Below the pieces are notes generated by a model, which saw only the letters and a program-made list of their open reading frames with translations, searched no databases and was not told where the DNA came from. This document shows, one piece after another, positions 25,766 through 44,629 of a DNA stretch of 64,000 bases; position 1 is the first letter of the stretch; the number at the start of each line of letters is the position of its first letter. The translations under genes and the position numbers were made by a program. The stretch covers positions 1-64,000 of the forward strand of contig DASPIL010000107.1 of assembly GCA_035629175.1 (NCBI GenBank), in the 5' to 3' direction. The DNA is from Verrucomicrobiia bacterium (lineage in GTDB: Bacteria; Verrucomicrobiota; Verrucomicrobiia; Limisphaerales; DASXHY01).

Positions 25766-25875
25766 GGATCTCCGCAACTCTAAGTTGATGGAACGCTTGA
25801 AATGAGGGTGCAGCGCAGACGTCTAGCGGGGCCGTATCGACGATGCATAGGCTGCTTGAGCGGTGATCGCCCACC

Positions 25876-25920
25876 CGGCTTGGAAGCGCGGCGATACAGC
25901 AGATTGGAATCTGCGCTGCG
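25876..25920. repeat. Dispersed hairpin repeat, copy A
   Basis: The block starting CGGCTTGGAAGCGCGGCG, then ATACAGCAGATTGG and AATCTGCGCTGCG, matches 44006-44051 over about 45 bp. Within it GCAGATT and AATCTGC form a stem; the other copy has CAGGTT and AACCTG instead, so paired positions changed together. It lies immediately downstream of the aminotransferase gene and upstream of the regulator operon. It is not coding. Confidence 0.75.
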
Positions 25921-25924
25921 CGTT

Positions 25925-27073
25925 CTACTTCGATTCGATTTTGGGAAAGATCTCCTTGAACGCGGCCAAGAACCGCGCCATCTCGTCCGCTGTTCCAATT
26001 GACACGCGCAAGTGCTCGAGCATTGGCGGGAACGGACGCCCGACGAGAATATTCCGCTGGCGAAAATCCTGGATCACTTCACCCACCGCACGGCGGACAT
26101 GCACCATGAAAAAGTTGCCGTGAGAGGGAATTACGGCGTAGCCGTGCCTTTGGATTTCCCTGGATGTGTCCGAGCGAAGTTGGATGGTGGCCGTGCGAAC
26201 CCGATCGTAACCAGCCTTGTCCTCCAAAGCGGCGACGCCTCCAAACCGCGCCAGGACATTGACATTCAGGGATCCGGCATAAGGACGCATGCGCTGCATC
26301 AGTGGAGCTGGAGCGAGGCCGTAACCCAGGCGCATTCCTGCCATGCCGAAAATCTTTGAGAAGGTACGCGCAACGATCACTGGCCTTCCCTCGTTCACTG
26401 CGGGAATGGCAGAGTCGTATTCAGGCGTGTCCACGAAATCGTGGTAGGCTTCATCAACCAGGATGGGAATTTCGCGCGGCAATTCATTGAGCAGCTCCCG
26501 GATTTCATTCCTTGGAACAATCAGTCCAGTCGGATTGTTTGGATTGCACACGTAAACGAGCCCGATTTCGTTGGCGTGTTGCCCGACGGCTTTGATCAAT
26601 GCCTGGGTGTCCTGGCGGTGATCGGCTTTGAGAGGCAGGCGGATGGCGTTTGTTCGCAGGCCCGTTGCGAATTCATAAACCGAGCTGAAAGTCGGTTCCA
26701 CGCCGATCACCTTTTTCCCATTCTGTAAAAACGCCATTGCGGCGACGTGCAGGATTTCCGTCGAACCTGCGCCCAGTAATACGTTGTCCTGCCGCACGCC
26801 GTGATACGCGGCAATGGCTTGAATCAGCCCGGGATCGGGGTAGCGATAGCGATTGGCGTATTTGGTCGCGCGGCTCATTGCATCCAGCACCGATTGGGAA
26901 GGGCCATAGGGGTTCTCATTGCTGGCGAGTTTCGCGACCGAGTCATAGTCACCGCCTGTCGATCGCGCCGCGACGTTCGTGTTCTGCGCCTGAAGGTGGG
27001 CTGGGACGCTGAGGCCCGCGACCGTGGCCGCCAGTTGTCCAACAAAGGTTCGCCGAGTGACTGGATTTTTCAT
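25925..27073 (-). CDS. HisC-like PLP aminotransferase with Tat signal
   Basis: 382 residues, fold-type I aminotransferase of the histidinol-phosphate/aromatic group. The PLP lysine is K240 in ARTFSKIFGMAGMRLGYG. Other family positions are N180 (CNPNNPTG), D207 (LVDEAYHDF) and the R248 region. Residues 1-30 are a twin-arginine signal peptide: TRRTFVGQLAATVAGLSVPA ending at AQ, so the folded, cofactor-loaded enzyme is expected outside the inner membrane. No his genes are nearby. It is transcribed away from the ABC/SPFH operon, with a 196-bp shared upstream region. The substrate is unknown; histidine biosynthesis in the periplasm is unlikely, which makes a different role probable. Confidence 0.88.
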   Translation of the reverse strand: MKNPVTRRTFVGQLAATVAGLSVPAHLQAQNTNVAARSTGGDYDSVAKLASNENPYGPSQSVLDAMSRATKYANRYRYPDPGLIQAIAAYHGVRQDNVLLGAGSTEILHVAAMAFLQNGKKVIGVEPTFSSVYEFATGLRTNAIRLPLKADHRQDTQALIKAVGQHANEIGLVYVCNPNNPTGLIVPRNEIRELLNELPREIPILVDEAYHDFVDTPEYDSAIPAVNEGRPVIVARTFSKIFGMAGMRLGYGLAPAPLMQRMRPYAGSLNVNVLARFGGVAALEDKAGYDRVRTATIQLRSDTSREIQRHGYAVIPSHGNFFMVHVRRAVGEVIQDFRQRNILVGRPFPPMLEHLRVSIGTADEMARFLAAFKEIFPKIESK

Positions 27074-43134: not shown

Positions 43135-43950
43135 ATGAGATCTTCCAAACGCATCCTGGATGTTTCCAACCTGCGCATTGAGCGCAACGGAACGGTCATT
43201 CTCCACGATGTGTCATGGCAGGTTCAAAGAGGACAACACTGGGCGATTCTCGGCGCGAACGGCTCAGGAAAGACTTCGCTGCTCAGCGCCCTCACGGGTT
43301 ACCTCATGCCGACGGCAGGGGACATTTCGTTGCTGGGCCAGCGCTACGGAGAATCGGATTGGCGCGAACTGCGGCGCAGGATTGGAATTGTCAGTTCGTC
43401 CGTGCGCCAGATGATGGCGGACGACGAACCCGCGCTGGAAACCGTGGTCAGCGGAAAGTACGCGATGATCGATTTCTGGGGCCGTCCGCGGCCAGCCGAC
43501 GAGCGCGAGGCACGCCGCTTCCTGGCTCAGGTGGAATGTTCCGAACTCATTGATCGGCGATGGGGTGTCTTGTCGCAAGGTGAGCGTCAGCGGGTGCTGA
43601 TCGGCCGCGCGCTCATGGCCAAGCCTCAGGTGCTGATTCTTGATGAACCCTGCGCGGGTCTCGATCCCGCGGCGCGCGAACAGTTCCTCGGATTCGTCGA
43701 GCGTATCGGGAATCGCCGAGATGGCCCGACGTTGATCCTGGTGACGCATCATGTGGAGGAGATCATGCCGGCGTTTTCTCATGTTCTGCTGCTCAAGAAT
43801 GGACGCGTAGGTTCTGCAGGGGTAAAAGCCGATGTTCTAACAAGCCGCAACCTGTCCGATACCTTCACTGCACGCGCGCGGGTGAAGGTCGTTCGACATC
43901 GATATCAAATGACGATTGCTCCGGGACAGCGCAGAGACCGCGTCGCGTAG
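43135..43950 (+). CDS. ABC transporter ATP-binding protein (stand-alone, YlmA/ModF-like)
   Basis: 271 residues with a complete ATPase domain: Walker A LGANGSGKTSLLSAL, signature LSQGERQRVLIG, Walker B VLILDEPCAGLDP and H-loop VTHHVEEIMPAF. The segment IVSSSVRQMMADDEPALETV is typical of stand-alone ATPases of the YlmA/ModF type often annotated as iron or molybdate related. No permease or binding protein gene is adjacent, so its partner, if any, is elsewhere. Some related proteins act without a permease. It faces the FG-GAP gene across a 36 to 177-bp region depending on that gene's start. Confidence 0.88.
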   Translation: MRSSKRILDVSNLRIERNGTVILHDVSWQVQRGQHWAILGANGSGKTSLLSALTGYLMPTAGDISLLGQRYGESDWRELRRRIGIVSSSVRQMMADDEPALETVVSGKYAMIDFWGRPRPADEREARRFLAQVECSELIDRRWGVLSQGERQRVLIGRALMAKPQVLILDEPCAGLDPAAREQFLGFVERIGNRRDGPTLILVTHHVEEIMPAFSHVLLLKNGRVGSAGVKADVLTSRNLSDTFTARARVKVVRHRYQMTIAPGQRRDRVA

Positions 43951-44005
43951 CGGGTTGCGTGGCTATGCAGCGCTTCCCAGCCTGCTCGGCGTGGATCACA
44001 TTTGG

Positions 44006-44051
44006 CGGCTTGGAAGCACGGCGATACAGCAGGTTGGGAAACCTGTTGCGG
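44006..44051. repeat. Dispersed hairpin repeat, copy B
   Basis: Second copy of the element at 25876-25920: CGGCTTGGAAGCACGGCG then ATACAGCAGGTTGGG and AACCTGTTGCGG. The CAGGTT/AACCTG stem replaces CAGATT/AATCTG of copy A. It is located between the ABC ATPase gene and the LURP-one-like gene. In both copies the same minus-strand frame reads NLLYRRASKP, a by-product of the repeat and not a gene. Confidence 0.75.
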
Positions 44052-44137: not shown

Positions 44138-44629
44138 ATGCGGTACGTGATGAAACAAAAGTTTTGGTCGTGGGGCGATGACTTTACGATCAAGGATTCC
44201 AATGGCGCCGATGTTTTCCAGGTCGACGGCCGCGCTTTCAGCTGGGGCGACAAGCTGTCGTTCCACGATGCCGCTGGAAAAGAGATAGCGTTTATTCGGC
44301 AGAAACTTCTCTCGTGGGGACCCACGTATGAGGTCGAGGTGCACGGGAGACTGACTGCGGTCGTAAAGAAACATCTGTTCACGCTGTTCCGGGCAAAATT
44401 CACGGTCGACGTGCCAGGACCAGACGACCTGGAGGCAGCGGGCGATTTCCTCAGTCATGAGTATGCGTTTTCACGTGGCGGCAGAGCCGTGGCCCAGGTG
44501 AGCAAACGCTGGTTCAGTTGGTCGGATACATATGGGATTGATGTCGAAGACGGCGAGGATGACGTGCTGATCCTGGCGAGCGCCGTCGTGATCGACATGG
44601 TATGCCATCAGGAGAGCCGGAAAGGGTGA
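44138..44629 (+). CDS. LURP-one-related / Tubby-like fold protein
   Basis: 163 residues, matching the LURP-one-related (DUF567) family, a Tubby-like beta-barrel: MKQKFWSWGDDFTIKDSNGA, FQVDGRAFSWGDKLSF, IRQKLLSWGPTYEVEV and KRWFSWSDTYGIDVEDGEDD. Members are found in bacteria and plants and have been proposed to bind membrane lipids or act as scramblase-like proteins; bacterial functions are not established. No signal peptide. The start at the first ATG is kept, though MKQKF four codons later is the conserved beginning. Confidence 0.85.
   Translation: MRYVMKQKFWSWGDDFTIKDSNGADVFQVDGRAFSWGDKLSFHDAAGKEIAFIRQKLLSWGPTYEVEVHGRLTAVVKKHLFTLFRAKFTVDVPGPDDLEAAGDFLSHEYAFSRGGRAVAQVSKRWFSWSDTYGIDVEDGEDDVLILASAVVIDMVCHQESRKG

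Follow-up and report, generated by a model that had tools for sequence, protein, structure and literature searches.

The two repeats found in the window are very probably decayed members of a REPIN family, that is, non-autonomous mobile elements made of two inverted REP arms and spread by a RAYT. The window is the whole 64,000-nucleotide stretch of Verrucomicrobiia DNA analysed here. A first-pass annotation had described two matching copies in it, at 25876-25920 and 44006-44051, and we find both in the window sequence. The stems are also as described, CAGATT (25900-25905) with AATCTG (25908-25913) in copy 1 and CAGGTT (44030-44035) with AACCTG (44040-44045) in copy 2; the differing pair is A-T in the first and G-C in the second, that is, the paired change is real, and similar ones have already been reported for REPs. 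The loop is GG in copy 1 and GGGA, 2 nt longer, in copy 2. The core common to both, GGCTTGGAAGC(G/A)CGGCGATACAGCAG, occurs with up to three mismatches at these two places only in the window, against an expectation of 0.00 from 100 shuffles.

Features of the two repeat copies in the window (positions are those of the 64,000-nucleotide stretch)
Feature	Positions	Strand	Remark
Probable decayed left arm and spacer, copy 1	25823..25874, limits uncertain	+	from alignment
Inner hairpin, copy 1	25875..25891	+	CCGGCTT-GG-AAGC-g-CGG
Linker CGATACA between hairpins, copy 1	25892..25898	+	
Outer hairpin, copy 1	25899..25914	+	stem CAGATT/AATCTG, A-T at the two-state pair
Right-end tag, copy 1	25915..25920	+	GCTGCG against consensus GCTACG; tag GTAG changed to GCAG
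GTAG, possible left tag of copy 2	43947..43950	+	TAG doubles as the ABC ATPase stop codon
Decayed left arm and spacer, copy 2	43951..44004	+	from alignment
Inner hairpin, copy 2	44005..44021	+	
Linker CGATACA, copy 2	44022..44028	+	
Outer hairpin, copy 2	44029..44046	+	stem CAGGTT/AACCTG, G-C at the two-state pair

Both window copies are intergenic. Ten bases lie between the outer hairpin of copy 1 and the end of a minus-strand aminotransferase gene (25925-27073, Pfam Aminotran_1_2), and on the other side of copy 1 is an ORF lacking a Pfam match, beginning at 25777; copy 2 is flanked by an ABC ATPase gene that ends at 43950 and a LURP-one-related gene that starts at 44138. An alignment of 14 copies shows that the window copies retain the right arm and that their left arm is decayed. 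The decayed left arm of copy 2 has CTGCTCGGCGTGG(A/T)TCACA in common with the copy at C76:25559; the decayed left arms of both copies are absent among the own-genome matches to the covariance model described below. GCTAC is retained at the right end in 18 of 36 own-genome rows and in neither window copy; no CTAC follows the outer hairpin of copy 2, whose right-hand tag is gone.

Collecting copies genome-wide and building a covariance model, as the first-pass annotation had advised, brought out many further copies. Our search pattern had 31 positions, two of them free, and is exact in both window copies; the own genome comprises 5.41 Mb in 108 contigs. With up to three mismatches the pattern was found at 8 places genome-wide, and the reversed pattern at no place in the whole 5.41 Mb. 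A covariance model, R1, was made from the alignment of these 8 own-genome copies with the two-hairpin structure written in, and it gave at least 109 own-genome matches at E<=1, of which at least 78 reach E<=0.01. These counts come from scoring 150 of the 1600 first-look candidates, and chance may account for the weakest matches. The worry that the two window copies might be the only ones is thus removed, as is the worry that other copies might break the stem, since 90% of cells are paired in the 36 best own-genome rows.

The repeat is a short palindromic one in many dispersed, mostly extragenic copies: 23 of 29 sampled own-genome copies are intergenic, against a predicted coding share of 80% (by a rough hexamer gene caller). 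The nearer gene end of the intergenic copies is a 5' end in 12 and a 3' end in 11, or 11 and 12 when the ABC ATPase gene beside copy 2, which the caller overlooked, is counted; there is therefore no preference for 3' gene ends. The annotation's remark that both window copies sit beside gene ends is right as far as it goes, both being intergenic and near gene ends, but the placement is ordinary extragenic placement without favour for 3' ends. These numbers bear on the idea that the repeats are host RNA elements (3' end stabilisers, attenuators or terminators) whose compensatory changes come from selection on the transcript. Although the intergenic share suits it, as do stems that covary with some G-U pairs, we consider this idea very unlikely: 3' ends are not favoured over 5' ends, the window hairpins have no T run after them on either strand, no element has an Rfam match at gathering score in the window or in 8 related loci, and the repeat frame adjoins RAYT genes (see below). 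A terminator role in particular was set aside, there being neither T run nor 3' bias. In the window the Rfam gathering score was reached by two tRNAs only. The 8 related loci gave three microRNA-precursor matches, two of them on elements; all scored far below the gathering threshold, and we read them as chance matches on palindromes. Some copies could have acquired a host use later.

The organization of the repeat is that of a REPIN. Read inwards, each arm has a GTAG tag, then an outer hairpin, then the linker TGTATCGC (GCGATACA in the mirrored arm) and last an inner hairpin. In a full element of the related genome G037, CGTAGCGCAG-stem-CTGC is followed by TGTATCGC and the second hairpin; beyond the spacer come the third hairpin, GCGATACA, GCAG-stem-CTGC and GCTACG. 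The same frame with other stems is found in G006, G018 and G052, and also, with altered tags, in G029; copies in all five genomes likewise carry the linker CGATACA, and those of G037, G006, G018 and G052 have the GTAG-type tetranucleotide outside the hairpin foot, as GTAG...CTAC. This chassis is common to several genomes of one verrucomicrobial order, and its stems and loops vary widely between them. Complete copies that we measured span 103-156 bp from tag to tag (136-156 bp in G037, 134-135 in G006, 134 in G052, 103 in G018 and 112-114 in two own-genome copies). Among the 109 own-genome matches there are 15 neighbouring pairs within 200 bp, and 14 of these show one and the same inverted arrangement around a spacer, the tags facing outwards; one such pair consists of two overlapping matches. 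At E<=0.01 the proportion is 7 of 7. Of this paired organization the window copies show a decayed left arm only. In several G037 copies (loci L122, L125, L126 and L127) the sequence just outside one CTAC end resembles, by eye, GGGGGCGGTGCGCGGATGCGCCC, which may be a favoured target site or may belong to the element as an extension.

The suspicion in the first-pass annotation that the hairpin is kept by selection is supported by covariation, and this support comes from the larger sets of copies, the first eight alone showing covariation not above that of shuffled alignments. Re-searching 29 of the 30 best own-genome loci gave 37 matches and 36 distinct rows. In these rows 90.0% of cells are paired against 83.3% after shuffling, and both sides are changed in 33 cells against 8.5 in the shuffles, a number that none of 500 shuffles reached; when the partner is shifted by 1-3 columns, pairing drops to 22-45%. 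The two-state position is GC in 19 rows, AU in 9, GU in 2, unpaired in 5 and a gap in 1. The 36-row alignment was fitted to the structure and leans that way; two further extractions were anchored on the linker and tag, outside the stem, and have no such leaning. First, the 40 outer hairpins from 20 loci of G037 comprise 24, 10 and 4 hairpins of three paired stem types and two single departures, with 99.4% of cells paired against 94.1% shuffled. Second, among 54 distinct hairpins from many genomes, at loci found with R1 or for RAYT genes and thus neither a random sample nor free of related, non-independent copies, the outer seven pairs are formed in 88.6% of cells against 80.4% in shuffles (maximum 83.6% in 2000); the two-state position is AT in 24 and GC in 22. 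A loose own-genome extraction was left out of the pairing tests because unrelated sequence was mixed in.

Paired changes might instead arise incidentally, through palindrome correction or through exchange between arms, with no selection on the fold. Because the arms can carry different stem versions, an arm swap would change both stem sides at once: four own-genome rows with GGGCGATACA context have GACT..AGTC or GACT..GGTC stems, and most rows of the CCGGCTTGGAAGC hairpin carry GGTT..AACC or a near version. We nevertheless judge this origin rather unlikely, because fully paired stems come in more than six versions among the loci, because the next position has a third kind of pair (GC, three times) that could not be created by arm swapping alone, and because swapping would itself need an earlier origin of the paired versions. 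Selection on the fold of a RAYT-spread REPIN remains our preferred reading of the covariation.

The link to RAYTs comes from related genomes, beginning with the RAYT gene of G006, which has repeats of the frame on both sides. We collected RAYT loci in named genomes, the best 80 of at least 537 relatives, and R1, although built from own-genome copies only, matched 11 of the 80; 25 of the 29 matches lie within 300 bp of the gene, a zone that makes up 14% of the flank at those 11 loci. In a tree of 48 proteins, G006 and five of the named loci (L205-L209) form one clade with support 100/98, and the frame stands beside the gene in 6 of 6 members. R1 matched all 5 named loci of this clade against 6 of the 75 other named loci (Fisher p 2e-5), with the frame on both sides in 4 of the 5, the fifth locus ending 30 bases after the match. 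The linker is GCGATAC(A/G) at G006, L205, L206 and one side of L207, and, with one base changed, GCGAAAC(A/G) at the other side of L207 and at L208 and L209. The tree comprises 45 of the 80 named proteins together with those of G006, the own genome and G052; it includes L243-L250 and leaves out L251-L284 as well as L242, which was hit but has a partial match. The R1-match label needs 8 changes on this tree, against 11.7 when shuffled (4 of 500 shuffles as low), because R1 matches are scattered in the sister group.

The frame beside these genes also bears on the possibility that the repeats are the termini of a degraded element bounded by terminal inverted repeats, either a DDE-type insertion sequence or a MITE, the RAYT link being coincidental. 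Inverted arms with a spacer would suit such an element, and so would the repeat populations of G037 and G018, where no RAYT stands beside a copy. However, the GTAG tag and the hairpins within each arm fit a RAYT element, and the frame stands on either side of the RAYT gene in G006 as well as in the four named clade members noted above, so that we hold a DDE origin to be extremely unlikely and keep to a RAYT-spread REPIN.

The check for an associated RAYT, likewise advised by the annotation, succeeded in part: frame-flanked RAYT genes exist in related genomes, but no RAYT of that clade was detected in the window's genome, which is 96% complete, such that an overlooked gene is possible. The own genome has 5 Y1_Tnp matches; the one closest to the clade shows 52% identity, and the tree places it outside the clade. 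Because the own RAYTs all lie outside the clade and both right-hand tags are altered, the window copies are probably relics that remained after loss of their cognate RAYT. With the NCBIfam model REP_Tyr_transpos (cut-off 80), an own-genome RAYT scores 81.7 bits and that of G006 78.7. Among solved structures, PDB 4er8 (TnpA-REP) was the one relative found for the own RAYT, at E 1e-5; we take this chain, named TnpArep, to be the E. coli TnpA-REP.

An R1 match beside a RAYT does not by itself establish the frame. We compiled 81 locus entries around Y1_Tnp/RAYT matches of the own and related genomes, several entries being the same gene, and found R1 matches at five places: G006:C176, G012:C679, G002:C31, G052:C165 and the own contig C67. 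These are five of the six places whose RAYT is at least 50% identical to that of G006 from residues 44-51 to 259-263 (G006 counted); the sixth, G005:C239, had no R1 match. Scores are 25-36 bits at G006, 33-36 at G012, and 20-24 at G002, G052 and the own genome. The flanks at the four places other than G006 have other linkers (GCGATACG in one G012 repeat; 1-3 matches were read per place), and these are therefore related repeats and not the TGTATCGC frame. The repeats by the nearest own RAYT and by the other matched RAYTs outside the clade, too, have mostly different linkers, and since such repeats reach 19-36 bits, an R1 match alone is no proof of the frame. Two of the named loci, L226 and L232, are apparently the same genes as G012:C679 and G002:C31, and the two locus sets are thus not independent.

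Other RAYT loci have repeats of their own. At L010 (own C67, 739-2037) a RAYT gene has tandem repeats GTAGCGGCAGGCATCCTGCCTGCC plus a second hairpin, GCCGGGCTTCCAGCCCGGC, on both sides, and GTAGCGGCAGGCATCCTGCCTGCC is found at 29 own-genome places with up to three mismatches, some of them in arrays on C1 and C77 with a spacing of 175-179 bp. Another own RAYT gene, at L012 (C69, 1040-2130), has direct GCCGACTGGAAGTCGGC copies and longer duplicated flanks on both sides. The RAYT genes at L156 and L157 (G037) and L166 (G002) have other flanking hairpin repeats (GGAGCGCGGCTGTGTCGC, GTAGCTCGACATTCCAATGTCGAG and GGCGACACTCTTGTCGCC); at L158 and L167 the two flanks have no 14-mers in common. At L160 (G052:C165) the RAYT gene is partly duplicated in tandem with a flanking repeat, the upstream piece carrying a stop. 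Within this order the repeat family may vary with the RAYT.

Across the order, R1 matches at E<=0.01 were found in 29 of 58 genomes, the 57 relatives searched all belonging to other families of the order. The repeat is present in 28 of the 49 genomes with Y1_Tnp against 1 of the 9 without (p 0.025, ignoring genome size and relatedness), a comparison that is only weakly informative. A phylum sample of 194 genomes, searched at E<=1e-4 with stricter filters, yielded the repeat in the own genome only; the 20 other genomes listed are all of the same class.

Ten genomes (the own and nine relatives) have at least 13 R1 matches. Five of the ten have an R1 match beside a RAYT, and the very frame is clearly there in G006 only. 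G037 has at least 104 R1 matches, many equal in score (the weakest at 8.6 bits, E 0.81), and a match at none of its 9 Y1_Tnp loci (1.5-2 kb searched on each side); G018 has 60 matches and no Y1_Tnp found in a genome that is 89% complete; matches were seen beside none of 4 Y1_Tnp loci in G025 and at neither side of the single one in G009. In G029 a left arm of the repeat lies near a RAYT fragment that is of a different type and carries a stop, with R1 scores of at most 15.5 bits (sub-threshold). Repeat-bearing genomes without the repeat beside a RAYT (G037, G018, G025 and G009) are the main gap in our account, although absence beside RAYTs is weak evidence because draft genomes collapse such repeats. 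If one RAYT moved several sub-families, reading tag and linker and not the stem sequence, the G037 and G018 populations without an adjoining cognate RAYT would be explained; we regard this as an unlikely extension.

By analogy with the TnpA-REP work in E. coli and Stenotrophomonas, a RAYT, being an HUH/tyrosine transposase, would bind the folded single strand of the repeat, read the GTAG tag and hairpin, and then cut and rejoin the strand. Copies able to fold would be the only ones copied on, and a one-sided stem change would thus be kept when matched on the opposite side. Movement of the repeat by a RAYT is then the presumed source of its many copies, and single-stranded DNA the likely form under selection. 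Neither excision nor an empty site came to light.

On this reading the repeat in the window is ordinary debris of a mobile element. More broadly, we have a sequence-defined REPIN family and RAYT clade in uncultured Verrucomicrobiota, with widely varying stems in a nearly fixed frame, and hence a convenient natural data set on which parts of a REP are read by a RAYT. Among the papers listed in our literature searches we recognised none on this REPIN family; it may have been printed before, for instance among the Opitutus GTAG consensus sequences.

Among the closest known systems are the TnpA-REP/REPtrons of E. coli, Stenotrophomonas and Marinomonas (PMC8266576). The TnpA-REP HUH tyrosine enzymes described there cut single-stranded REP hairpins using GTAG, in a mode that differs by group, and group 3 REPs are perfect palindromes. 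In Stenotrophomonas a stem mismatch affected or almost eliminated cleavage; the E. coli enzyme requires a bulged stem, and pairing it up kills activity, so that activity does not depend on a perfect stem in every system. Activity was measured in those systems, whereas the present family is known from sequence alone, and its own-genome RAYT reaches the TnpA-REP structure only at the E-value given above. Tagged REPs (GTAG or CGTC) occur in 8 phyla according to Di Nocera et al. 2013 (PMC3733652), a study that places GTAG-tagged REPs also in the PVC group and describes alternative complementary stem residues. The dimer partners of O. terrae GTAG-17 and GTAG-19 are given there as 1-2 bp apart, whereas 14 of our 15 own-genome pairs are 12-85 bp apart. 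REPINs were defined in Pseudomonas fluorescens SBW25, where, according to Bertels and Rainey 2011 (PMC3116915), their hairpins show compensatory changes, singlets are regarded as remnants, and REPIN clusters are placed beside RAYTs. Published work thus already covers REPINs, RAYTs, compensatory stems and verrucomicrobial GTAG repeats, and the family is of a known kind; compared by description only, it differs from the SBW25 REPINs in that each arm is two hairpins joined by TGTATCGC/GCGATACA, an arrangement that may also occur in other REPINs.
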